Shown: positions 1 through 31,225 of the stretch, piece after piece
Position numbering within the stretch: position 1 is the first letter of the stretch
How the letters are laid out: every line of letters begins with the position of its first letter
NCBI RefSeq assembly: GCF_035987325.1
Contig: NZ_CP108488.1
Coordinates: 3,100,001 to 3,164,000 of the forward strand
Source of the DNA: Streptomyces sp. NBC_01244
GTDB lineage: Bacteria; Actinomycetota; Actinomycetes; Streptomycetales; Streptomycetaceae
Direction of reading: 5' to 3'
DNA: 64,000 bases
The notes under the pieces: generated by a model
Told to the model about the DNA's origin: nothing
The model's input: only the letters and a program-made list of their open reading frames with translations
Database searches by the model: none
Translations under genes and position numbers: made by a program

Positions 1-268
1 AGGCCAGCACGCTCGGCAGGTACGCCCCGGGCAGCGCCGCCCGGGCGGCCTCCTCCACCACGACGGCGAGGTCGAGCAGGGTGCCGCCCTCCAGGTGGGG
101 TTCCAGCAGCCCGGAGGCGAGCAGCCCGTCCCAGTAGGCGGGCCGCGAGCCCGTCTGCGGCGGGGTGTCGAGGAGCTTGCGCACCTCCTCGGGCGGCACG
201 GCCCGCGCGACCCAGCCGCGTGCGGCCTCGGCCAACTCCCGCTGTTCCTGTGTGATTCCGATGCCCAT
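1..268 (-). CDS. acyl-CoA dehydrogenase, N-terminal part (runs off the window)
   Basis: Only the first 89 codons are inside the window; the gene continues to the left. The translation starts MGIGITQEQRELAEAAR and runs through a helical segment to an 'EEAARAALPGAYLPSVLA' stretch. This is the N-terminal helical domain of acyl-CoA dehydrogenases of the FadE/ChsE type, flavoproteins that introduce the alpha-beta double bond in acyl-CoAs. The ATG at 266-268 is preceded by a short leader and then a paired KstR-like operator. From that context I infer a role in degrading a steroid side chain or ring fragment rather than ordinary fatty acids. The catalytic Glu and FAD-binding parts lie outside the window, so substrate and activity cannot be judged. 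ACAD family call is fairly sure; the exact paralogue is unknown. Confidence 0.8.
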   Translation of the reverse strand, partial: MGIGITQEQRELAEAARGWVARAVPPEEVRKLLDTPPQTGSRPAYWDGLLASGLLEPHLEGGTLLDLAVVVEEAARAALPGAYLPSVLA

Positions 269-279
269 GCGCGGCAGAG

Positions 280-327
280 TAGAACACGTTTCATTCTGAC
301 GGAAGGTCAGAACTGAAACGTGTTCTC
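280..327. promoter_or_regulatory. paired KstR-like operator
   Basis: Two 14-bp sites face each other. TAGAACACGTTTCA at 280-293 matches TnnAACnnGTTnnA at every fixed position. TGAAACGTGTTCTC at 314-327 is nearly its exact reverse complement (13 of 14) and misses only the final A. The sites are separated by 20 bp and lie 12 bp upstream of the acyl-CoA dehydrogenase start codon, where a repressor would block transcription. A kstR-like gene is present about 20 kb away in the same window. Confidence 0.75.
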
Positions 328-420
328 ACTTTGCGAAGGGCGCGTCGAGGGCACGCGCCGGGCTCGGGACCCGGCGCGGGCGCGGCTCGGAAGCCCTGCG
401 CTCGACGGGGAAGCGGGACG

Positions 421-474
421 GCGAGGCGGCGGGGCGGCGGGGCGGCGAGGCGACGGGGCGACGGGGCGGCGGGG
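421..474. repeat. GC-rich short tandem repeat
   Basis: A run of imperfect units of the form GCGGCGGGG / GCGACGGGG. It sits in the roughly 490-bp stretch between the first gene and the membrane protein at 757. The rest of that stretch holds the operator and one doubtful reverse-strand reading frame. Confidence 0.6.
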
Positions 475-497
475 TCAGGGGATGAGGGCGAGGCCCG

Positions 498-767
498 TCA
501 CGGCCACGGCGCACACCGCGAAGCCCGCAGCGACTCCAGCGCGACCAGGACCGCCGGGACCTCGACACCCGTCTCCCCGAGTTCTCTCATCTCGTTGAGC
601 GCGTCCCGCTCGCCGATGATCGACAAGAGGGCGAGGAGGAGGACGACGCCGCCCACCGCGACGGACCAGCCGAGCACCTGGGAGACCGTGTCCACAGCGG
701 CGACCGTACGTCTTCGGGACACCTCCGGGAAACCCCCGCCCCCTACGATCGCGCCCATGTCCTCCAT
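498..767 (-). CDS. doubtful small membrane protein, possibly frameshifted
   Basis: This is an 89-codon reading frame with streptomycete codon bias, a purine-rich SD-like stretch (GAGGGCGGGT) before its ATG, and one clear membrane segment ('VLGWSVAVGGVVLLLALLSI'). Its C-terminus ends oddly (ASRCAPWP). A shift to the neighbouring frame near 520-540 would instead give a second hydrophobic segment ending 'VCAVAVTGLALIP' with a stop at 475. The start overlaps by about 10 bp the start of the forward gene at 757, which is unusual for two real divergent genes. It may be a real two-helix membrane protein with an indel, or nothing. I do not recognise a family. Confidence 0.3.
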   Translation of the reverse strand: MEDMGAIVGGGGFPEVSRRRTVAAVDTVSQVLGWSVAVGGVVLLLALLSIIGERDALNEMRELGETGVEVPAVLVALESLRASRCAPWP

Positions 768-1620
768 ACCCGCCCTCTTGGGTGACCGAGGTACCGAACT
801 CCGCGCGGACAGCGGCGGAATGGTCCTTCAGCGCCTCCACGAGGAGGTCCGCATCCCCCTTGCCGCCGTCGCCCGCGTGCACGCGAGGGGGCGGGTGGTG
901 GCCGTGGAACTGGCGGTCCCCTCCGGGACCAAGCCGGTCCCGTACCGGATCGGGGGCGTGAGCCGTGCCTCGGCCGCCGCCTTCGCTGCGGCGATGAACG
1001 GCTCGCTGCCCGAGCGCCCCGCCGGCCGGGTCCCGGCGGACGGATCGGCACTCGTGACGGTCACGCCCCGCGAGGACGCGGCCGCCGCCGGCCGGGAGGC
1101 GAGCGGCGAGGAGGGCGGTGAGGAGGGCGCGGAGCCGCTCCAGCCGGCCGAGTTCTTCGGCCGCTGCGCGATGGCCGCGGCCGTCCTCGGACTCGTCGCC
1201 CTCGCGGCGCGCGTGGTGATCGCCGGGGACCACGTGAGCCGCGCGCTCGCGGTGCTGCTGCTCGGTGTCCCCGTTCTGGCTGTCGGCAGGCTGTCGGCGA
1301 CCATGGTGGCGATGGTGTGGAACGAGTGGTACCTGCCCCGTCACGGCATCACGACCGAAGCGCGGCCCCTCCTCATCCACGGCAAGGTCACCTACGGCTA
1401 CACCGCCACCGACGGCAGGATCCGTCCCGCGCCCGTCCACGGCGCCGCACACGGCACCTCGTTCCAGGTCGCCTACCACCCCAAGTACCCGGCGCGCGCG
1501 GTGGTGTTCGGGAGCCCTGGTCAGGTCTTCCGGCTGACGATCCTGCCGGCGTTCTTCGGGACCCTCACCGCCCTCCTCTGCTGGGGCACGCTCGCCCTCG
1601 CCCAGCCCGCCGCCCGCTGA
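757..1620 (+). CDS. hypothetical membrane protein
   Basis: 287 residues. The N-terminal half (to about residue 125) is soluble and polar, with an 'RIPLAAVARVHARGRVVAVELAV' strand-rich region and an Ala/Glu-rich linker. Two hydrophobic helices follow around residues 140-190 ('AMAAAVLGLVALAARVVIAG' and 'VLLLGVPVLAVGRLSATMVA'). A beta-rich domain comes next, and a last membrane helix closes the C-terminus. The layout resembles streptomycete proteins annotated DUF3592-like: a short extracytoplasmic beta domain ('VTYGYTATDGRI...', 'VAYHPKYPARAVVFG') between helices. I recognise the DUF3592-type pattern but assign no function. It is convergent with the kinase gene 31 bp downstream. The start has no strong ribosome-binding site; a later ATG near 820 is possible. 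Confidence 0.7.
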   Translation: MSSIPALLGDRGTELRADSGGMVLQRLHEEVRIPLAAVARVHARGRVVAVELAVPSGTKPVPYRIGGVSRASAAAFAAAMNGSLPERPAGRVPADGSALVTVTPREDAAAAGREASGEEGGEEGAEPLQPAEFFGRCAMAAAVLGLVALAARVVIAGDHVSRALAVLLLGVPVLAVGRLSATMVAMVWNEWYLPRHGITTEARPLLIHGKVTYGYTATDGRIRPAPVHGAAHGTSFQVAYHPKYPARAVVFGSPGQVFRLTILPAFFGTLTALLCWGTLALAQPAAR

Positions 1621-7712: not shown

Positions 7713-8849
7713 CTACTTCCACTCCACGCCCTTCACCGACAACTTCGTCGCGTCGTAGGCATCGGTGGAGAGGACCGTCGCGGGTCCACCGCCCTGCGGG
7801 ACCTCCACGACCGCCGTCACACTCCACACTTCCTCGATGCTGGCCCACTTGCGGCGACCCCCGCCCAGCAAGGCTTCGGAGTCGCTCTCCGCATCCAGCA
7901 GCGCCCAGTTCGCCACGGTGACACCCCGGTTCCGGTACGTTCCCTCGAGCGTGCAGGTGACCAGGGAGCCGCCGTTCTTCAGCCGGAACACCGGCAGTTC
8001 CTCCCCCGCCGGCCGGTAGGAGAAGCTGCGCTGCAACTTCTCCGCGTCCCACCCGTTGAAGTGGTCCACCATCTTGCTGGTGAAGTCACCCGGTTCGAAG
8101 TGCGGGCTGTCCGGCTTCCCCGCCGGCGCGATGAAGCTCAAGTAGTCCGCGTAGCGCCCGCACACAGCGGTGTCCGCCGTCGCGGTCGGCGACAGCTCCG
8201 CGCTGTCGGCCGCTCCCCGCGCCGGCTCCGGCAGCACCTTCGGGCGGACCTTGATGACCCCCGCCTCGGGGGACGCCGTCGGCGAGGCGCTCGGGGTCGC
8301 CGGAGGAGGCACGGTGACGACCCAAGTGGCCACCACGGCCTTCCAGTCCCCAGCGCCTCCGCCGCCTCCGCCGCCTCCGCCGTCTCCGCCGTCTCCGCCA
8401 CGAGTGAAGTAGTGCAGGACAGAGCTCCGGTCCTTCTCCGCCCCCTCCCTCTTGCTCAGTACGGCGAATCCCCGGGGAGCCCGCGCACCCTCCACCACCG
8501 CCGGAATCAGGAACACCGGTTGCACATAACGGACCGGCGTCGTCTTGGTTCCCTTGGCCTGGTCCAGCCGCGCCGCGGCCCGGCTCTCCTCCAGCAGCCG
8601 ACCGCCCTCCACGGCGGCGACCGCCCCGGTGTCGCCCTTTTCGACGGCTGCGGCCTTCTCCAGCACCTACCTGTCGAAGACCAACTTGGCCTGCGCCTCG
8701 GTCAGCAGCGGCGCGGCGCCGCCTGCGGTACCGGCCGAAGACCGGCCGGGGGATCCGGCGGCCCCGCCGCCACCCGCGCACCCGGCCATGACCGTCCCCA
8801 CCATGACAACGGCTCCCGTCGCACTCCACGCACGCCCGCGCAGGACCAT
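7713..8849 (-). pseudogene. lipoprotein gene interrupted by an in-frame TAG
   Basis: The reading frame opens at 8849 (GGGGGAG precedes the ATG) with a lipoprotein signal ('TGAVVMVGTVMAGC', lipobox Cys). It reaches 'LTEAQAKLVFDR' and then a TAG at 8667-8669. The same frame continues without a break for 317 more codons: 'VLEKAAAVEKGDTGAVAAVEGG', a Gly-rich linker, and a globular C-terminal domain with 'GVTVANWALLD' and 'VWSVTAVVEVPQGG'. A single base change (for example TAC to TAG) would explain the interruption. A GTG directly after the stop could restart translation but would lack the signal peptide. No family recognised; related proteins are streptomycete-specific lipoproteins. Pseudogene, read-through and sequencing error are all possible. 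Confidence 0.6.
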
Positions 8850-8938
8850 CGCCCGCTCCCCCTGTCGGCCCATCAGATCGACGTGATCATAGAGTGCGGG
8901 GATGACCGCAGGGGCTACTGGACAGCCCCCAACCCCCA

Positions 8939-9378
8939 GTGATCGACCGGAGAATTCGTATGGCCTTGCAGCAGATGTCCGTCGACCGCGAACCGGCCGC
9001 GGGAGCGATCCTCCTGACAGGCACCTCCTGGCGGACAGCTTCGCGCGGGCCGGTTTCGTCCCGGTGCTCGATGACGTCGTGGTCCGCCGTTCCCACCTCG
9101 ACCTCTACCGCGCGAAGCTGACGGCCGTGCCGCTGCACCTCGTCGTGCTGGCTCCCGGTCCGGCGGTCGCGTGGGAGCGGAACCAGACCCGCGAGAAGGT
9201 CCTCGCCGTGGACTGGTCCCCGCTGGACGAGGCGCTGCGCTCCGAACTCGGGCGGGAAGGAACGTGGATCGACAACGCCGCGCAATCGGTCGAGGAGACG
9301 GTCGAGGCGATCCTCTCCGCAATCGGTCTGGGGGCCGAGGTCTGCCCCGCGGGCGGCGCCGGAGGCCGTGTTCGCTAG
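8939..9378 (+). pseudogene. remnant of a P-loop kinase/AAA-type gene
   Basis: From about 9030 to 9378 one frame encodes the C-terminal two thirds of a small P-loop kinase related to chloramphenicol-phosphotransferase-like proteins: 'HLLADSFARAGFVPVLDDVVV', 'VPLHLVVLAPGPAVAWERN', 'VEETVEAILSAIG'. The N-terminal Walker A region is missing. The best start-proximal segment ('ALQQMSVDREPAAGAILLTG') is in a different frame, joined near 9025. The gene is therefore truncated and frameshifted. An intact P-loop kinase of another type follows directly. Confidence 0.45.
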
Positions 9379-23144: not shown

Positions 23145-23298
23145 GTTCTAGGAGTCCACGGCGCTGACCGAACCGCCCGCGCATCGGTTCACCCGACACC
23201 CCGAAGATCCAACGACTAGTCAGGAGCCCGCAAAAATGGTCGACTTGGGCGACTATTGCAACACGTTCCTGTTAGAGCCCGTAAGAGCGGAGCCCCTC

Positions 23299-24363
23299 AT
23301 GGCAGAGGACACCCCGGACGTGGCACCTCACGTCACCGATCACGGCGGCGGCGTGTGGGGCATCAAGGTCCCCATCCCCGACAATCCGCTCGGCCACACC
23401 CTCGTCCACGTCCTCGACACCGACCGCGGCCCGGTCCTCATCGACACCGGCTGGGACGACCCCGCGTCCTGGGACACCCTCGTCGCCGGCCTCGCCGCCC
23501 TCTCCATCGCCGTCGCCGACGTGCACGGCGTGGTCATCACCCACCACCACCCCGACCACCACGGCCTGTCCGGCCAGGTCCGCGAGGCTTCCGGCGCCTG
23601 GATCGCCATGCACGCCGCCGACAGCGAGATCGTGGTGCGGACCCGGGCCTCCGAACCCGGCGTCTGGTTCGACTACATGAGCGAGAAGCTGGCCACCTCC
23701 GGAGCCCCCGAGGAGCACATCGCCCCGCTGCGCGCCGCCCGCGCGAGCGGCCGCATGAGCACCCTCCCGGGGCTGCGGGCCGCCGTCCCCGACCGGGAGA
23801 TCGTGCCCGCCGAGCTGCTGCCGCTGGCCGGCCGCCGGCTGCGGGCGATCTGGACCCCGGGGCACACCCCCGGCCACGTCTGCCTGCACCTGGAGGAGAA
23901 GCATCCGGCGAACCTGCCCGGCAACGGCCGCCTCTTCTCCGGGGACCACCTACTGCCCGGGATCTCCCCGCACATCGGCCTCTACGAGGACCCCTCCTCC
24001 GAGCGGATCACCGACCCCCTCGGCGACTACCTCGACTCCCTCGAACGCATCGGCCGCCTCCGGCCCGCCGAGGTGCTCCCGGCCCACCAGCACGCGTTCA
24101 CCGACGCCCCGGCCCGCGTACGGGAACTCCTGGACCACCACGAGGAGCGGCTGACCGGGCTGCGCGAACTGCTCGCCGCCGAGCCGCTGACCCCGTGGGC
24201 GCTGGCGGAGCGGATGGAGTGGAACCGGCCCTGGGAGCAGATCCCGTACGGCTCCCGCAACATCGCCGTCTCCGAAGCGGAGGCCCACCTGCGGCGCCTG
24301 GTGAAGCAGGGCCGCGCGGAGGCGGTACCGGGCACCGACCCCGTGACGTACCGCGCCGTGTAA
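23299..24363 (+). CDS. metallo-beta-lactamase-fold hydrolase
   Basis: 354 residues. Metal-binding signature 'VVITHHHPDHHGL', then 'IWTPGHTPGHVCLHLEE' and 'LFSGDHLLPGISPHIG' provide the other ligands. The C-terminal 'ERLTGLRELLAAEPLTPWALAERMEWNR' is a winged-helix-like tail typical of the lactamase_B_2/LACTB2-like group that acts on thioesters or lactones. The ATG at 23299 has GAGCGGAG upstream; an earlier in-frame ATG at 23236 lacks this. Divergent from the aldehyde dehydrogenase across a KstR-like site, so possible co-regulation. Hydrolysis of a CoA thioester would fit the context but is inference. Confidence 0.88.
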   Translation: MAEDTPDVAPHVTDHGGGVWGIKVPIPDNPLGHTLVHVLDTDRGPVLIDTGWDDPASWDTLVAGLAALSIAVADVHGVVITHHHPDHHGLSGQVREASGAWIAMHAADSEIVVRTRASEPGVWFDYMSEKLATSGAPEEHIAPLRAARASGRMSTLPGLRAAVPDREIVPAELLPLAGRRLRAIWTPGHTPGHVCLHLEEKHPANLPGNGRLFSGDHLLPGISPHIGLYEDPSSERITDPLGDYLDSLERIGRLRPAEVLPAHQHAFTDAPARVRELLDHHEERLTGLRELLAAEPLTPWALAERMEWNRPWEQIPYGSRNIAVSEAEAHLRRLVKQGRAEAVPGTDPVTYRAV

Positions 24364-24408: not shown

Positions 24409-24530
24409 GTAGAGTATGGGCGTCGTCCACACTTCCGTACGGGGGGAAGCCGGTGCGAATCCGGCGCTGACCCGCAACCGTGACCCTCCCCGGCAGCACC
24501 GGGGCGGGGAGCCGGATTGCCCCGTGCCGG
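24409..24530 (+). promoter_or_regulatory. cobalamin (B12) riboswitch
   Basis: The leader contains the conserved core order of the cobalamin riboswitch: GGGGGAAGCCGGTGCGAATC, then CCGGCGCTGACCCGCAACCG TGA, a GC hairpin, and GCCGGATTGCC (B12-box core, about 24439-24521). GC-rich alternative hairpins follow to about 24600 and could hide the start region of the gene at 24665. Cobalamin binding should switch the downstream operon off. Boundaries are approximate. Confidence 0.88.
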
Positions 24531-24664
24531 AGGTGCGCGGCTCGTGCCGCCGGGTCCTCCGGCGGCCGGCACCGTCGAGGTAAACGGAGCCGGAGCCCGG
24601 TGCCAGCCCCCGCCGCTGTGCTGCCTGCCTCCGGGTCCCCAGCACGAGAGGCACCCGCCCCGCC

Positions 24665-25927
24665 ATGAACGTCCGCCGCAGCGCCGCCACGCTCGCCGTC
24701 TCCGCCGTGCTCTGCGTGGGCACGGCCCCCGCGGCCCTCGCCGATGTCGCCACGCCGTCCCCGGCGCCCGTCATCCCCTCCGGGCTCTACGGCAAGAACG
24801 ACCCGACGTACGACGGGGTGTGGCGGCAGTCCTTCGCGCTGCTCGCCCAGCACACGGTCGGCGTGAAGCCCGCACAGGCGGCCGTGGACTGGCTCGTCGG
24901 CCAGCAGTGCGCCGACGGCGGCTACGCCTCCTTCCGCGCGGACACGGCAGCCGCGTGCGACGCGAAGACGATGCTCGACACGAACGCCACCGCCGTGGCC
25001 GTGCAGGCGCTGAAGGCGCTCGGCGGCCAGGACGCGGCGGTGAAGAAGGGCGTGGACTGGCTGAAGTCCGTCCAGAACGCGGACGGCGGCTGGGCCTACG
25101 TCCCCGGCTCCCCGAGCGAGGCCAGCTCCACCTCCGTGGTGATCAGCGCGCTGGCGGCGGCGGGCGAGAAGCCGGCCGAGGTCAAGTCCAAGACCGGCAA
25201 GTCCGCGTACGAGGGGCTGCTCGCCTTCCAGCTCGGCTGCTCGGCCGAGCCGGCCGCCGACCGGGGTGCCTTCGCCTACCAGCCGACGGCCGACGGCAAG
25301 CTCCCCGCCAACGCCGACGCGACGGCCGCCGCCGTACTGGCGGGCCTCGGCAAGGGCGCGCTCCTCTCCCCCTCCTCCTCTCCTACGGACACCCCCGCGG
25401 CCGCGCTCGCCTGCCCGGCGACCGCCGGTGACCCGGCGGCGGCGGCCCAGGGCGCGGCCGGATACCTGGCCGAGGCCCTGAAGAAGGACGGCCACCTCAC
25501 GGCCCTCACCCCGGGCGCCGACCAGCCGACCCCGGACACCGGCAACACCGCCGACGCGGTGATCGCCCTGGCCGCGGCCGGACACAAGCAGTCCGCGGCG
25601 GGCGCCCTGGAGTGGCTGAAGACCAACTCCGCCGAATGGTCCAAGGGCAGCCCGGCCGCCCTGGGCACCCTGGTCCTTGCCGCGCACGCGACGGGCACCG
25701 ACCCGAAGGCCTTCGGCGGCACCGACCTGGTCGCGGCGCTGAACGCGACGGGCCCGGCGCCGCAGAGCGCCTCCGCGAAGGCGTCCGACCAGCCGGCGGA
25801 GAAGAAGGACGAGAAGAAGGAGAAGGACTCCGGCAGCAACGTCTGGTGGATGATCCTCGCGGGCGCCGCGGCCGGCATGGGCATCGGCATCGTGCTGAGC
25901 GGCCGCCGGAAGCGGAACCAGCTCTGA
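24665..25927 (+). CDS. secreted transcobalamin-like alpha/alpha-barrel protein, membrane-anchored
   Basis: 420 residues. Signal peptide ('LAVSAVLCVGTAPAALAD'), then an alpha/alpha barrel built from repeats with 'WLVGQQCADGGYASF', 'WLKSVQNADGGWAYV', 'AYEGLLAFQLGCS', 'NTADAVIALAAAG', 'EWLKTNSAEWSKGSPAALGTLVLAAHATG'. Prenyltransferase/squalene-repeat folds of this kind also form the alpha domain of intrinsic factor and transcobalamin, the vitamin B12 binders. A Lys/Glu-rich stalk and a C-terminal helix ('WWMILAGAAAGMGIGIVL') with a basic end anchor it in the membrane. It is the first gene after the B12 riboswitch and overlaps the next by one base (TGATG). I infer cobalamin capture outside the cell. 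Confidence 0.8.
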   Translation: MNVRRSAATLAVSAVLCVGTAPAALADVATPSPAPVIPSGLYGKNDPTYDGVWRQSFALLAQHTVGVKPAQAAVDWLVGQQCADGGYASFRADTAAACDAKTMLDTNATAVAVQALKALGGQDAAVKKGVDWLKSVQNADGGWAYVPGSPSEASSTSVVISALAAAGEKPAEVKSKTGKSAYEGLLAFQLGCSAEPAADRGAFAYQPTADGKLPANADATAAAVLAGLGKGALLSPSSSPTDTPAAALACPATAGDPAAAAQGAAGYLAEALKKDGHLTALTPGADQPTPDTGNTADAVIALAAAGHKQSAAGALEWLKTNSAEWSKGSPAALGTLVLAAHATGTDPKAFGGTDLVAALNATGPAPQSASAKASDQPAEKKDEKKEKDSGSNVWWMILAGAAAGMGIGIVLSGRRKRNQL

Positions 25928-26589
25928 TGCGCCGCCGCAGCCGTCCGGCTCTGCCGGTCTTCGTCCTCGGTGTCATCCTGACGGTGCTGGCCGCCTCCCC
26001 CGCCCTGGCCTCGACCTACCGCTACTGGTCGTTCTGGGACGGCGCGGGCGGCACGTGGGCGTACGCCACCCAGGGCCCCTCCTCGCTGCGCCCGGCGGAC
26101 GGCTCCGTGCAGGGCTTCCACTTCGTGGTGAGCAAGGACGCCGCCGATCAGGCCGCCCCGCCGCGCGCGGACGCCGACTTCGCGGCCATCTGCTCGGCCA
26201 CCGCCCCGGTGGCGGGCAAGAAGCGGATCGCCCTGGTCATCGACTTCGGCACGCCCGCCGAAGCCCAGGCGGGCGAGACCCCGCCGCAGGAGGCTCCGCG
26301 TACGGCGTGCGCGCAGGTCGGCCCGGACGCCACGACGGCCGAAGCACTGGCCGAGGTGGCCAAGCCGCTGCGCTACAACAGCGCGGCGCTGCTGTGCGCC
26401 ATCTCGGGCTACCCGAAGCAGGGCTGCGGCGAACCCATCGCGGACACCGCGGCCGCTCCCGCAGCGGACGAGCCCGCCGCCGACTCCGACAGCGGGGGCC
26501 CGTCGGCGGGCCTCCTCGCGGGCCTCGCGGCGGTGGCCGCCCTGGGCGCAGCCGCCTTCTGGCAGTCCCGCCGCCGCCGCACCCGATGA
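25927..26589 (+). CDS. SCO2322-family secreted protein, transcobalamin beta-domain-like
   Basis: 220 residues with a signal peptide ('VFVLGVILTVLAASPALA') and a C-terminal membrane helix followed by RRRRTR. The mature part starts 'STYRYWSFWDGAGGTWAYATQGPSSLRPADGSVQGFHF' and ends with 'YNSAALLCAISGYPKQGCG'. The order YW...G...DG...F resembles the small beta domain (DUF4430-like) that forms the other half of transcobalamin, though the similarity is weak by eye. Homologues sit next to ECF transporters in other streptomycetes (SCO2322 type). Co-translated with both neighbours (1-bp and 4-bp overlaps). Confidence 0.75.
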   Translation: MRRRSRPALPVFVLGVILTVLAASPALASTYRYWSFWDGAGGTWAYATQGPSSLRPADGSVQGFHFVVSKDAADQAAPPRADADFAAICSATAPVAGKKRIALVIDFGTPAEAQAGETPPQEAPRTACAQVGPDATTAEALAEVAKPLRYNSAALLCAISGYPKQGCGEPIADTAAAPAADEPAADSDSGGPSAGLLAGLAAVAALGAAAFWQSRRRRTR

Positions 26590-27905
26590 CGGGCGGCCCC
26601 AAGGAGAACGGCGGGGCGGGCGCCGACGGCGATCTGCCACCCACCAGGGCCACCCGCACCCGCCCGTCGACCCGCACGGGTGGTGCGGGTGGGAACCCCG
26701 CCCGGCCGCAGGCCGGGCGCACGCCCCACGGAGCGGCGGGCGACGTCCTCACCCCGACCCACCCGGACGCCCCCGACAGGGCAACCGGCACCCAGCACGT
26801 GCCGACGTACAAGAAGAAATGGCAGGCCCCCGAGGCCACGCGTGGCAACGCCCTGCACGCGGGTGCCTGGTGGCTCTGGGCCCTCGGGCTCGCCACCGCC
26901 GCCTCCCGCACCACCAACCCGCTCCTCCTCGGCCTGATCGTCGGCGTCGCCGGGTACGTGGTCGCGGCCCGCCGTACCGATGCCCCCTGGGCGCGTTCCT
27001 ACGGGGCGTTCGTCAAGCTCGGGCTCTTCGTCATCGGCCTGCGCCTCGTCTTCTCCATGCTGCTCGGCTCCCCCATCCCCGGCGTGCACACCCTCTTCAC
27101 CCTCCCGGAGGTCCCGCTCCCGGACTGGACGCGGGGCATCCGGCTCGGTGGCCGGGTCACCGCCGAGCAGCTCGTCTTCGCCTTCTACGACGGTGCGAAG
27201 CTGGCCACGCTCCTGATCTGCGTCGGCGCCGCCAATGCTCTCGCGAATCCGGCGCGGCTGCTGAAGTCCCTGCCCGCGGCCCTGTACGAGGTCGGCGTCG
27301 CCGTGGTCGTCGCGATGACCTTCGCGCCGAACATGGTCGCGGACGTGGTGCGCCTGCGTACGGCCCGTCGCCTGCGCGGCCGCCCCACCGGCGGGATCAA
27401 GGCGATCCTCCAGATCGGCCTGCCGGTGCTGGAGGGCGCGCTGGAACGCTCGGTGGCCATCGCCGCCTCGATGGACGCCCGCGGCTACGGTCGCACCGCA
27501 CACGTTCCCGCCGCCGTCCGGCACACCACCAACGTGCTCACCCTCGGCGGGCTGCTCGGCATCTGCGCCGGCACGTACGGGCTGCTGGCGGCGGAGGGCG
27601 CCGGATACGGCCTCACCCTCCTCCTCTTCTCCCTCCTCCTGGCCCTGGCCGGGCTGCGGCTCGGCGGCCGCCGGTCGATCCGGACCCGGTACCGGCCGGA
27701 CCGGTGGGGCGTACGGGCCTGGCTGGTCGCCGGGTCGGGCGCGGCGGTGGCGGCGCTGCTGATCCGGGCCGCGTCCCTGGACCCGGAGGCCCTGCGCCCC
27801 GGCGTCGTCCCCCTCGTCGTCCCGACCCTCCCGCTCTGGCCGGCCGCGGCGATCCTGATCGGCCTCCTCCCGGCGCTGGTGGCCCCACTACCGAAGGAGG
27901 CATAG
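26586..27905 (+). CDS. ECF transporter T component (CbiQ family)
   Basis: 439 residues. About 75 residues of disordered N-terminus precede a membrane domain with several helices ('WWLWALGLATAASRTTNPLLLGLIVGVAGYVV', 'VGVAVVVAMTFAPNMVADVV', 'LLGICAGTYGLLA'). The coupling motif 'SMDARGYGRT' is the A-R-G box by which EcfT contacts the ATPase. It links the ATPase to the substrate-binding S component. ATG overlaps the previous stop (ATGA). The N-terminal extension is unusual for the family and may be a streptomycete addition. Confidence 0.9.
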   Translation: MTGGPKENGGAGADGDLPPTRATRTRPSTRTGGAGGNPARPQAGRTPHGAAGDVLTPTHPDAPDRATGTQHVPTYKKKWQAPEATRGNALHAGAWWLWALGLATAASRTTNPLLLGLIVGVAGYVVAARRTDAPWARSYGAFVKLGLFVIGLRLVFSMLLGSPIPGVHTLFTLPEVPLPDWTRGIRLGGRVTAEQLVFAFYDGAKLATLLICVGAANALANPARLLKSLPAALYEVGVAVVVAMTFAPNMVADVVRLRTARRLRGRPTGGIKAILQIGLPVLEGALERSVAIAASMDARGYGRTAHVPAAVRHTTNVLTLGGLLGICAGTYGLLAAEGAGYGLTLLLFSLLLALAGLRLGGRRSIRTRYRPDRWGVRAWLVAGSGAAVAALLIRAASLDPEALRPGVVPLVVPTLPLWPAAAILIGLLPALVAPLPKEA

Positions 27906-27911
27906 GCCCCC

Positions 27912-30269
27912 GTGATCCACTTCGAAGACGTATCGGTGACGTACGAGGGCGCGGCCGCCCCCTCCCTCGCGCACGCCGATTTCACGCTCCCGGAAGGCGA
28001 GCTGACCCTCCTGGTCGGCCCCTCCGGCGTCGGCAAGTCCACCCTGCTCGGCGCGGTCTCGGGCCTGGTCCCGCACTTCACCGGGGGCACCCTGAAGGGC
28101 CGGGTCACGGTCGCGGGCCGCGACACGCGCACGCACAAGCCGCGGGAGCTCGCGGACGTGGTGGGAACGGTCGGCCAGGACCCGCTGGCCCACTTCGTGA
28201 CGGACGTCGTCGAGGACGAGCTCGCCTACGGCATGGAGTCCCTGGGTCTGCCGCCCTCCGTCATGCGCCGCCGCGTCGAGGAGACCCTCGACCTCCTCGG
28301 CCTGAACGACCTCCGCGACCGCCCCATCGCCACCCTGTCGGGAGGCCAGCAGCAGCGGGTGGCCATCGGTTCGGTCCTGACCCCGCACCCCCGCGTCCTG
28401 GTCCTGGACGAGCCGACATCGGCCCTCGACCCGGCGGCGGCGGAAGAGGTCCTGGCCGTCCTGCAACGCCTGGTCCACGACCTGGGCACGACCGTCCTGA
28501 TGGCGGAACACCGCCTGGAACGGGTCGTCCAGTACGCCGACCGCGTCCTGCTCCTCCCCAACCCGGGCGCACCCCCCGTCCTGGGCACCCCCTCCGACAT
28601 CATGGCCATCTCCCCGGTCCACCCCCCGGTGGTAGCCCTGGGCCGCCTCGCACACTGGTCCCCCCTCCCCCTCTCCATCCGCGACGCCCGCCGCCAAGCC
28701 ACCCCCCTCCTCACCCGCCTGTCCACCACCACCCCACCCCGGACATCCCCCGGGGCGGGGCCCGGGCCGGGGGCGGGCACGAGGGCGGAGCCCTTGGCCG
28801 CGCCCGGAACGGCCCCCCGCAACGGGTCCGGTGCGGAGCCCCATGCCGGTGCCGGTGCGGAGCCCGTGGTCTGGGCCGGAGCGCAGCCGCCGGCTGAGGC
28901 CGGGGCGCAGCCCCAGGCCGCGCCCGGAACGGGGCCCGGGGCGGAGCCCCATGCCGGTGCCGGTGCGGAGCCCGTGGTCTGGGCCGGGGCACAGCCCCAG
29001 GCCGGGTCCGGGGCGCAGCCTCCGGCTGAGACCGGAGCGCAGCCCCCGGCCGCGCCCGGAACGGGGTCCGGGGCGGAGCCCCATGCCGGTGCCGAGGCGG
29101 AGCCCGTGGTCTGGACCGGGGCGCACCCGCCGGCCGAGGCCGGGGCGCAGTCCCACGCGGCCCCCGGCACGGGCCCCCGTACCGGGTCTGGTGCACAGCC
29201 CCAGGCCGGGTCCGGGGCGCAGCCTTCGGCTGAGGCCGGAGCGCAGCCCGAGGACGCGCCCGGAGCAGGCCCCCTCACCGGTACCGGGGCGCAGCCTCCG
29301 GCCGGGTCCGGGGCGCAGCCCCGCAAGGGGTCCGGGGCGCAGCCCCGGGGAACGGGCGAAGGGTGGGTAGGGGACGGCCGCCCGCAGGGCCCCCGCTCCG
29401 ACACCGGCCCCGCACGCCGCCCCGGCCTGCTCGCCCGGCTGCGCCACCGCGGCCTCCGCACCCCTCAGCCGGCCCCGACCGGGGCGAGCAGGGCGCCGGG
29501 GGCCACCCCGGCCACGGTCACGGCCGTCTCCCTCCGCCGCGGCCGCGCCGAAGTCCTCCGCGACATCACCCTCACCGTGTCGCACGGCGAGACCATCGCC
29601 CTGATGGGCCGCAACGGCGCAGGAAAGTCCACCCTCCTCGCCACCCTCATCGGCACGCTGGAGCCCACCACCGGCCAGGTGACGGTGAGCGGCCGCACCC
29701 CCCACCGCACGCCGCCCCCCGAGATGGTGACCCGCGTCGGCCTGGTCCCCCAGGAGCCCCGCGACCTCCTCTACGCCGACACCGTCGCGGCCGAGTGCAC
29801 CGCCGCCGACCACGACGCCGGCCAGGCGCCCGGCACCTGCCGTGCCCTCGTCGCCGCGCTGCTGCCCGACGTCCCCGACGACACCCACCCGCGCGACCTC
29901 TCCGAGGGCCAGCGCCTGGCCCTCGCCCTGGCGCTGGTCCTGACCGGCCGACCGGCCCTGCTGCTCCTCGACGAGCCGACGCGCGGGCTGGACTACGCCG
30001 CCAAGGCCCGCCTCGTGGAGATCCTGCGCGGGCTCGCCGCCGAGGGCCACGCCATCATCCTGGCCACCCACGACGTGGAGCTCGCCGCAGAACTGGCCCA
30101 CCGCGTGGTGATCCTGGCCGGCGGCGAGATCGTCGCGGACGGCCCGACCGCCGAGGTCGTCGTCTCCTCCCCCGCCTTCGCCCCGCAGGTGGCCAAGATC
30201 CTGGCCCCGGGCCACTGGCTCACGGTCTCCCAGGTCGCGGCGGCCCTCTCCGCCCGGGCGGACTCATGA
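27912..30269 (+). CDS. ECF transporter ATPase, two fused ABC domains with a repeat-derived linker
   Basis: 785 residues, GTG start. First ABC domain (1-270): Walker A GPSGVGKST at 36-44, signature LSGGQQQR at 142-149, Walker B 'VLVLDEPTSALD'. Second domain (535-785): Walker A 'GRNGAGKST' near 566, signature LSEGQ near 663, Walker B 'LLLLDEPTRGLD'. Between them lies a linker of about 250 residues of 'GAQP/GAEP' octapeptide-like repeats whose DNA belongs to the same 22-24 bp repeat family as the intergenic block at 35390-35930. Both ATP sites look intact. It powers the ECF module with the T gene upstream and the S gene downstream (ATGA overlap). The double-domain layout resembles YkoD-type ATPases; the linker is far longer than needed. 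Confidence 0.92.
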   Translation: MIHFEDVSVTYEGAAAPSLAHADFTLPEGELTLLVGPSGVGKSTLLGAVSGLVPHFTGGTLKGRVTVAGRDTRTHKPRELADVVGTVGQDPLAHFVTDVVEDELAYGMESLGLPPSVMRRRVEETLDLLGLNDLRDRPIATLSGGQQQRVAIGSVLTPHPRVLVLDEPTSALDPAAAEEVLAVLQRLVHDLGTTVLMAEHRLERVVQYADRVLLLPNPGAPPVLGTPSDIMAISPVHPPVVALGRLAHWSPLPLSIRDARRQATPLLTRLSTTTPPRTSPGAGPGPGAGTRAEPLAAPGTAPRNGSGAEPHAGAGAEPVVWAGAQPPAEAGAQPQAAPGTGPGAEPHAGAGAEPVVWAGAQPQAGSGAQPPAETGAQPPAAPGTGSGAEPHAGAEAEPVVWTGAHPPAEAGAQSHAAPGTGPRTGSGAQPQAGSGAQPSAEAGAQPEDAPGAGPLTGTGAQPPAGSGAQPRKGSGAQPRGTGEGWVGDGRPQGPRSDTGPARRPGLLARLRHRGLRTPQPAPTGASRAPGATPATVTAVSLRRGRAEVLRDITLTVSHGETIALMGRNGAGKSTLLATLIGTLEPTTGQVTVSGRTPHRTPPPEMVTRVGLVPQEPRDLLYADTVAAECTAADHDAGQAPGTCRALVAALLPDVPDDTHPRDLSEGQRLALALALVLTGRPALLLLDEPTRGLDYAAKARLVEILRGLAAEGHAIILATHDVELAAELAHRVVILAGGEIVADGPTAEVVVSSPAFAPQVAKILAPGHWLTVSQVAAALSARADS
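28740..29400. repeat. 24-bp-unit repeats inside the ECF ATPase gene
   Basis: Units such as GGGGCGCAGCCCCAGGCCGG(GTCC) recur with 24- or 36-bp spacing, which keeps the reading frame. The array ends in the segment CCCCGGGGAACGGGCGAAGG followed by GGTGGGTAGGGGACGG, which is also the end of the intergenic repeat block at 35850-35890 and occurs in altered form near 50350-50390. Confidence 0.85.
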
Positions 30270-31225
30270 CCACCCCGACCCCGGCCACCCCGACCCCGGC
30301 CACCCCCACCCCGGCCACCCCCACCCCGGCTCCCACCCCGTCCGCCCCGGCCGCCCAGGCCTCCCACCCCCGTTCCCGCCCCCTCCGCATCGGCCCCCGC
30401 GCCGCCGCCGCCCTGGTCCTCGTCACCCTGATCGGTCTCGCCGCCTTCGGCTGGCCGCTCCTCGCCGACCGCCAGTCCGGCTTCGCGCACGCCCAGGACG
30501 CCCCCTGGCTCTTCGCGGCCCTGCTCCCGCTCCTCGTCGGGGTGGTCGTCGCGACCATCACCGACGACGGAATGGACGCCAAGGCCGTCGCCATGCTCGG
30601 CGTACTGGCCGCGGTCGGGGCCGCACTGCGCCCCCTCGGCGCCGGTACGGCCGGGCTGGAGCCCATGTTCTTCCTGATGGTGCTGAGCGGCCGCGTCCTC
30701 GGCCCGGGCTTCGGCTTCGTCCTGGGCGCGGTCACGATGTTCGCGTCGGCCCTACTCACGGGCGGAGTCGGGCCGTGGATGCCGTTCCAGATGCTGGCCA
30801 TGGGCTGGTTCTCGCTGGGCGCCGGGCTACTGCCTGGGCCGGACCGGATCCGCGGGCGGGCCGAGCTGGCGATGCTCGCGCTGTACGGGTTCCTCGGCTC
30901 GTTCGCGTACGGCACGATCATGAACCTTCAGGGCTGGGTGATCATTCAGAGCATGGACCAGGGCATCTCCTTCCACCCCGGGGAGCCGGTCCCGGCGAAC
31001 CTCGCGCGCTTCCTCTTGTACTGCCTGGCTACCTCGATGGGCTGGGACCTGGGCCGGGCCGCGCTGACCGTCGTACTCACCCTCACGCTCGGCGCGACCC
31101 TGCTGAAGGCGTTGCGGCGGGCGACCCGGAAAGCGGCGTTCGACGCGCCCGTGGCCTTCGATCCGCGGGTCACGAATCCCCCCAAACCTTCCCCTGAAAG
31201 GCATACGGGCAGCCACGGAGCGTAA
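30266..31225 (+). CDS. ECF transporter S component (substrate-binding membrane protein)
   Basis: 319 residues. The start overlaps the ATPase stop (ATGA). The first 25 residues are a 'PTPAT' tandem encoded by 15-bp repeats. Six or so membrane helices follow: 'AAALVLVTLIGLAAFGWPLL', 'LFAALLPLLVGVVVATI', 'AVAMLGVLAAVGAALRPLG', 'MFFLMVLSGRVLGPGFGFVLGAVTMFASALLTGGVGPWMPFQMLAMGWFSLGAGLL', the last being the typical EcfS core. Given the B12 riboswitch upstream, cobalamin or a corrinoid precursor is the likely cargo; cobalt is an alternative. Confidence 0.85.
   Translation: MTTPTPATPTPATPTPATPTPAPTPSAPAAQASHPRSRPLRIGPRAAAALVLVTLIGLAAFGWPLLADRQSGFAHAQDAPWLFAALLPLLVGVVVATITDDGMDAKAVAMLGVLAAVGAALRPLGAGTAGLEPMFFLMVLSGRVLGPGFGFVLGAVTMFASALLTGGVGPWMPFQMLAMGWFSLGAGLLPGPDRIRGRAELAMLALYGFLGSFAYGTIMNLQGWVIIQSMDQGISFHPGEPVPANLARFLLYCLATSMGWDLGRAALTVVLTLTLGATLLKALRRATRKAAFDAPVAFDPRVTNPPKPSPERHTGSHGA

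Follow-up and report, generated by a model that had tools for sequence, protein, structure and literature searches.

Little is known about how Gram-positive bacteria take up vitamin B12, and energy-coupling factor (ECF) transporters are generally thought to operate without an external binding protein. Among the closest described systems are bacterial proteins combining a toroid with an SLBB domain, which are encoded in CbiO/CbiQ operons and, in the available part of the article by Burroughs et al. 2007, are proposed to be B12 scavengers (PMC1796856). For the acI freshwater Actinobacteria, which have no B12 synthesis, the accessible text describes an ECF module behind cobalamin and adenosylcobalamin (AdoCbl) riboswitches and proposes it as a cobalamin transporter (PMC5301498). 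Here we describe an operon from Streptomyces sp. NBC_01244 (genome of ~10 Mb), located in a window of 64,000 nucleotides, the whole stretch that was analysed (contig 1, NZ_CP108488.1, 3,100,001-3,164,000). A cobalamin-riboswitch leader is followed in it by a SCO2321-family gene, a SCO2322-family gene, EcfT, a fused EcfA and EcfS, adjacent genes overlapping or almost so according to the coordinates and sequence of the window. We consider it likely that this operon encodes a corrinoid importer under AdoCbl control, in which a permuted transcobalamin-type capture protein hands its ligand over to EcfS and a barrel protein is an optional partner. The features, numbered from the first nucleotide of the window, are the following.

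24445..24513, + strand: cobalamin riboswitch core, RF00174 model positions 47-167 (30.5 bits)
24568..24604, + strand: conserved leader segment capable of forming a hairpin, GGCACCG ... CGGTGCC (read from the sequence)
24665..25927, + strand: SCO2321-family exported alpha/alpha-barrel protein, 420 aa, with a C-terminal membrane anchor (NF053823, Pfam SQHop/Prenyltrans, AlphaFold2)
24977..24985, + strand: D-T-N at the DXDD site of squalene-hopene cyclase (alignment)
25927..26589, + strand: SCO2322-family exported protein, 220 aa, with a small beta domain read as circularly permuted and a C-terminal anchor (NF040672)
26014..26136, + strand: first half of the permuted domain, YRYWSFW..., matching strands S3-S4-S5 of the standard order (positions 85-132 of the standard-order hidden Markov model, HMM)
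26215..26430, + strand: second half of the permuted domain, KRIALVIDFG...GCGE, matching S1-S2-helix-insert (standard-order HMM positions 13-78)
26497..26580, + strand: GPS-CTERM C-terminal sorting/anchor domain (NF040681, 31.8 bits, cut-off 28)
26586..27905, + strand: EcfT transmembrane coupling subunit (PF02361, CbiQ, 18.8 bits, E 0.0014, cut-off 25)
27912..30269, + strand: EcfA, two fused ECF ATPase domains, GTG start (PF00005 in two stretches, above cut-off)
30266..31225, + strand: EcfS substrate-specificity component (PF12822, 25.3 bits, E 1.7e-5, cut-off 30.7)

Element order of the small exported protein

The SCO2322 protein belongs to NF040672 (208.8 bits, cut-off 85). In the standard-order form of its domain, carried by paralogues and by relatives in the phylum, a VVVDF strand pair, a helix and a Cys-containing insert are followed by YWSYW...W.YS..G...G..W.F; in SCO2322-family proteins the YWSYW part stands first, and the second half contains a Cys that is invariant in 23 alignment rows. 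A standard-order profile built from 28 domains was applied to 24 permuted proteins (those of the window, of loci L019-L040 and of L063), and all 24 gave two matches in swapped order. After exchange of the halves a single profile match was obtained with a median of 64.1 bits; the best piece in native order reached 34.9, and half-wise residue shuffles -1.2. Rotation at two other points gave 54.8 and 55.8 bits, scores which we attribute to restoration of the same junction. Profile-profile comparison aligned the standard-order family with the rotated one over 115 columns (score 117.5) and with the native one over 49 columns (80.7). Throughout the class the halves were swapped in 28/28 loci, of which L124 holds the same gene as L063 of the 24-protein set; in L131 the first match covers more of the profile than expected. 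On this sequence evidence the small domain is a circular permutant of the standard-order family, cut before S3, a feature that the initial annotation missed.

The AlphaFold2 model of the SCO2322 protein (pLDDT 75.6, 23 sequences) places strands at 3-10, 16-19 and 33-42 in the first half and strands at 71-78, 97-103, 120-122 and 128-131 with a helix at 109-116 in the second, as well as an extra helix of four residues in the stretch joining the halves. Read from the second half onward, the model runs strand, strand, helix, two short strands and three strands. This fits the transcobalamin-type SLBB row S1-S2-H-extended insert-S3-S4-S5 in the table available from PMC1949818, the agreement being one of secondary structure only at this pLDDT. 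Foldseek and VIA-align found no fold match for the permuted model, the small protein had no match by sequence in the PDB, and PDB searches with standard-order or DUF4430 profiles returned only rows judged to be chance.

The likeness to DUF4430 that the initial annotation implied for the small domain stands as a probable remote relation. Pfam gave no PF14478 (DUF4430) match in the small protein of the window or in six standard-order relatives, and we therefore do not count the SCO2322 protein as a member. A pooled profile of the standard-order, rotated and distant standard-order groups could be aligned co-linearly with actinobacterial DUF4430 in 95 columns, with a score of 34.4 (E 4.4e-5), against 7.1 for the reversed profile and at most 17.5 in 60 column shuffles. 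The link is weakened by the weak scores of the separate sub-profiles, by a small first comparison that was not significant, and by the permuted family alone, for which rotation brought no gain (24.0 vs 23.8). A remote relationship of the small-domain family to DUF4430 is thus probable as far as profiles can tell. Within the 1.5-kb flanks of DUF4430 loci of the phylum a cobalamin riboswitch was found in 0/15 loci searched with Rfam (of 30), and among small-domain loci L063-L083 (n=21) it was found in four; in both sets the short flanks allow no judgement.

The leader, the ECF genes and the B12 regulon

All the parts that the initial annotation had named were recovered at the stated positions by RF00174, NF053823, NF040672, Pfam and TIGR matches, some of them below cut-off. 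The leader scored 30.5 bits with RF00174 (E 4.2e-6 in a 421-base search) where the gathering score is 31.5, and it is not listed in the scan of the whole window because it falls 1.0 bit short. A 35-base core of the leader was found upstream of the SCO2321 orthologue, with 0-4 errors, in 21/21 other testable loci (L037, whose contig ends inside the gene, is omitted), compared with 1/389 random segments at <=8 errors. The gathering score itself was reached in 6/9 orthologous loci searched, L019, L034 and L039 lying below it. The recurrence of the core in all 21 leaders and these six loci led us to reject a chance match. Downstream of the aptamer, the stretch GGCACCGTCGAGGT..ACGG.. in 24568-24604, a similar segment of which recurs in orthologous leaders, is a possible expression platform, judged from its capacity to pair.

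The window encodes together what is expected of an ECF transporter: EcfT, a pair of ATPase domains and an S-component. The EcfT of the window, below the Pfam cut-off, matched at 1e-96 the EcfT of a second operon of the same genome, which is above it with 45 bits. EcfA scored 285 and 282 bits with TIGR04521 and TIGR04520 (cut-offs 330 and 315), and relatives of EcfS exceeded the PF12822 cut-off in 5/9 genomes searched. Searching EcfS against PDB sequences gave no link to an S-component, the matches being potassium channels and designed repeat proteins that we judged to be chance.

Twelve RF00174 matches were found in the genome of the window, 11 of them above cut-off, and the genes behind six that were examined (CbiM, MetE, NrdD, NrdA, CobN and CbiB) are an ordinary B12 regulon. 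PF12822 matched only twice in this genome (E<=0.001), in the EcfS described here and in the second operon at ~8.57 Mb (locus L041, contig 1, 8,562,000-8,580,000), whose EcfS is 46% identical to it. The L041 operon has a riboswitch above the gathering score in front and starts with a 964-codon frame that matches both the standard-order small domain and a cyclase-type toroid; the locus also encodes a separate small-domain protein. Its divergent neighbour, led by another riboswitch, matches DUF4430 below the cut-off (E 0.0043), and its toroid match is very weak (E 0.1). Toroid and small-domain proteins thus accompany one type of S-component twice, each time behind B12 leaders, and since both PF12822 EcfS genes lie in B12-riboswitch operons, a role of the operon in corrinoid uptake is well supported. 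Cobalt-only transport was rejected, as no CbiM was found in the operon and CbiM stands behind another riboswitch. Among 12 loci of the second type (L041 and L050-L060), a cobalamin riboswitch above the gathering score was present in 10, with none in L051 and L053, and in five a single reading frame matched both the standard-order small domain and the barrel.

Some neighbouring observations deserve mention. L054, L058 and L059 each contain two separate standard-order small-domain frames and two to three cobalamin riboswitches per locus. L042, from the same genome as the window, encodes a riboswitch-led DUF4430 protein (8354-9100, - strand, PF14478 above cut-off) with an ABC-ATPase-like frame ~3 kb from it, and a strong cobalamin riboswitch (99 bits) upstream of a gene at 64-1594 (- strand), which from its appearance we take to be a methylmalonate-semialdehyde dehydrogenase. 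In the window a Strvi_7410-family metallo-beta-lactamase (MBL)-fold hydrolase gene (23236-24363) precedes the operon, likewise in 20/22 loci L019-L040, and the linker between the two ATPases of EcfA (window ~28750-29360) reads as a long Ala/Pro/Gly/Gln repeat stretch.

In the capture mechanism that we propose, the leader RNA would turn the operon down in a cell rich in adenosylcobalamin, and under B12 shortage the SCO2321 and SCO2322 proteins would be exported and anchored at the outer face of the membrane. The permuted transcobalamin-type (SLBB/DUF4430-like) domain of SCO2322, presumably a beta-grasp, would capture the ligand near the membrane and present it to EcfS, which would take it over for import powered by EcfT together with the fused ATPases. 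This ligand would be a corrinoid, most likely cobalamin.

The barrel protein, distribution and rival explanations

The SCO2321 protein belongs to NF053823 (568.3 bits, cut-off 300), with a signal peptide and an anchor read from its sequence. Pfam SQHop/Prenyltrans and the AlphaFold2 model (pLDDT 85.1, pTM 0.82) agree on an alpha/alpha barrel, a feature of transcobalamin and intrinsic factor that is common to many other families. The initial annotation had taken the barrel as transcobalamin-like; a closer resemblance to transcobalamin than to other alpha/alpha toroids is not supported by the structural comparison, in which squalene-hopene and drimenyl cyclases gave the best rows and many other alpha/alpha toroids are listed too. 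Neither transcobalamin nor intrinsic factor appears in the best 50 VIA-align rows, which excludes nothing. At the site aligned with the DXDD of class II terpene cyclases the barrel carries DxN, with D79 and N81 invariant in 22/22 barrel rows; a DxDD elsewhere occurs in 1/22, within an acidic stretch judged to be a linker. The Asn of D-T-N stands at the place of what we take to be the catalytic Asp. The barrel can accordingly be described as a cyclase-type alpha/alpha toroid that has lost its cyclase motif, and where present it may cover the opposite side of the ligand, like the toroid of transcobalamin.

Barrel and small protein are adjacent, as seen by eye in coordinate lists, in 44/45 family genomes with a barrel above cut-off, the 45th (G034) having them on separate contigs. 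A barrel match is absent genome-wide in 10/13 relatives that keep the small protein and the ECF genes, relatives chosen partly because their locus lacks the barrel, and no barrel was found near the small protein in 10/28 class loci. The barrel is a variable part of the system and is not universal.

Of 22 named loci encoding a relative of the small protein, 21 come from Streptomyces and one from an 'Actinobacteria bacterium'. NF040672 was above cut-off in 47/61 genomes of the family, 74/216 of the class and 10/296 of the phylum sample, all ten of the latter belonging to the same class. The 47 family matches are taken as permuted because they are nearly full length, the partial match of G034 excepted. 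In this sample the permuted form is therefore restricted to the class, the standard order being more widespread. ECF gene order is conserved in 24/28 class loci, the ECF genes not being found nearby in L134, L137, L147 and L148. The Rfam search covered 20 of the 28 class loci; 13 of these carry a riboswitch of the cobalamin class (RF00174, RF01482 or RF01689) above the gathering score, upstream and in the same orientation, and L125 has one at another place in the locus. Cobalamin control, surface proteins and ECF importer form one conserved unit, in support of this side of the initial annotation.

L134 and L137 encode a barrel and a permuted protein with no ECF genes nearby, a layout that may indicate another transporter partner. 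L134 also has an AdoCbl-II riboswitch and, divergent from the barrel and small protein, CobU, CobT and CobS above cut-off; at L147 a CobS-like gene, below its cut-offs, stands beside.

A minimal form is seen in six single-contig genomes of the class (group f92, 1.3-1.5 Mb). CobN was matched in 0/6 of them, NrdJ was found in 6/6 and a B12-binding domain above cut-off in 6/6, and these reduced genomes probably must scavenge B12. Each has exactly one PF12822 match (6/6, two above cut-off), at <= ~3 kb from the permuted protein. In L123 and L149, the two of these loci searched with Rfam, an AdoCbl riboswitch above the gathering score immediately precedes the permuted protein, which is followed by EcfT, EcfA and EcfS with no barrel. 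We tentatively suggest, at somewhat less than even chances, that there is a class of ECF vitamin importers with a dedicated, anchored extracellular capture protein whose domain is a permuted transcobalamin beta-grasp, that the permutation arose within one actinobacterial class and is found from Streptomyces to streamlined, B12-requiring lineages, and that the toroid was retained as an accessory or dropped. Transcobalamin-type B12 capture would then centre, in these bacteria, on the small domain and not on the barrel.

The most serious alternative is that barrel and small protein together form an essential closed clamp on B12, a two-module mimic of transcobalamin, as the initial annotation had supposed in placing a two-module binder at the core of the system. 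The adjacency of the two genes, their union in one frame in 5/12 loci of the second type, and the same argument made for other bacterial toroid-SLBB proteins, in the available portion of PMC1796856, speak for it. We nevertheless hold it to be unlikely: the barrel is absent from 10 of the 13 chosen relatives, so that the core of the system is not a two-module binder, and from the surroundings of the small protein in 10 of the 28 class loci; transcobalamin is also missing from the best 50 barrel rows, which excludes nothing. Somewhat less likely still is that the operon imports, instead of cobalamin itself, a corrinoid precursor or some other corrinoid, such as cobinamide or other cobamides. The Cob genes of L134 and the CobS-like gene of L147 would fit such a substrate, and the riboswitch reports adenosylcobalamin and not the species imported; against it stands the presence of NrdJ with no CobN match in the six reduced genomes, which is not decisive since nucleotide-loop genes were not searched there.

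The two remaining alternatives concern single proteins. Convergence of two unrelated short modules on the standard-order family, with no permutation involved, could account for the low score of the second half alone (6.4-19.0 bits in the 28 class loci), but is very improbable given the swapped order of both halves in 24/24 and 28/28 proteins, the median of the rotated full-length sequences compared with half-wise shuffles, and the fact that both forms adjoin EcfT, EcfA and EcfS of the same kind. That the barrel is an enzyme, a class II terpene cyclase or prenyltransferase in an operon that makes or moves a lipid, is suggested by its closest sequence and structure matches, the squalene-hopene and drimenyl cyclases. 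We rejected this as extremely improbable, because DXDD is replaced by DxN with both residues invariant, and the barrel is exported, anchored and placed under a B12 leader. Corrinoid import through a permuted capture protein is thus the explanation that we retain.

Comparison with known systems

If this explanation is true, many actinobacteria, reduced genomes included, would offer a testable external capture protein for an ECF importer of B12. The operon would also supply a natural circular permutant of the kind of domain with which human carriers close over B12, and a hint as to how the two-part binder evolved.

The statement of the initial annotation that no system of this kind had been characterised holds in so far as we found no experiments, but toroid and SLBB proteins with CbiO/CbiQ were already proposed in 2007 in the accessible part of PMC1796856, and its idea is therefore not new in kind. 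What is new here relative to that proposal is the permutation of the small domain and a barrel that is not universal. Neither 'Streptomyces' nor 'circular permutation' occurs in the available text of PMC1796856, and a small domain as core with the barrel optional was not found in the literature searched.

Predicted actinobacterial B12 ECF systems are reportedly included in the 2009 work of Rodionov. We found no work on the SCO2321-SCO2322 pair or on a permuted transcobalamin-type domain, an earlier mention being possible in Borovok 2006, Nahvi 2004, Vitreschak 2003 or Rodionov 2009. The literature on SCO2321-2325, judged by title and abstract, held nothing related, and that on DUF4430, judged by titles and the starts of abstracts, held nothing on bacterial B12 uptake. 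Putative B12 riboswitches were placed by Borovok 2006 before eight further S. coelicolor genes or clusters, as told in the portion of PMC4991794 at hand, and for S. lividans the text available from PMC8079986 lists two cobalamin riboswitches, those of the cbiM and cobD operons, and not that of the operon described here.

The comparisons that follow take each cited article as far as its accessible portion goes. Like the systems of PMC1796856, the present one has exported proteins, some anchored there as well, a toroid and a small domain, and CbiO/CbiQ-type transporter genes in the operon; unlike them, it occurs in an actinobacterium with B12 synthesis genes, its two modules are separate proteins with the barrel optional, and its small domain is apparently permuted and missed by Pfam DUF4430. 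The riboswitch and ECF layout at L123 resembles that of the acI module, for which an extracellular protein is not mentioned (PMC5301498), whereas here a permuted protein is exported. ECF-CbrT is an ECF-type cobalamin importer (PMC5997447), as we propose for this operon, but no sequence link was found between the EcfS of the window and any S-component in the PDB. With animal transcobalamin and intrinsic factor the barrel-bearing relatives would share an alpha/alpha barrel and a small domain of predicted beta-grasp type; here, in contrast, the proteins are separate and anchored, the small domain appears permuted, and no direct structural match was obtained. Finally, circular permutation within the beta-grasp fold, as our model suggests it here, is also described for the UFD domain of eukaryotic E1 enzymes (PMC1949818); in that domain S1 lies at the C-terminus, whereas the domain described here appears to be cut before S3, giving the order S3-S4-S5-S1-S2-H-insert.

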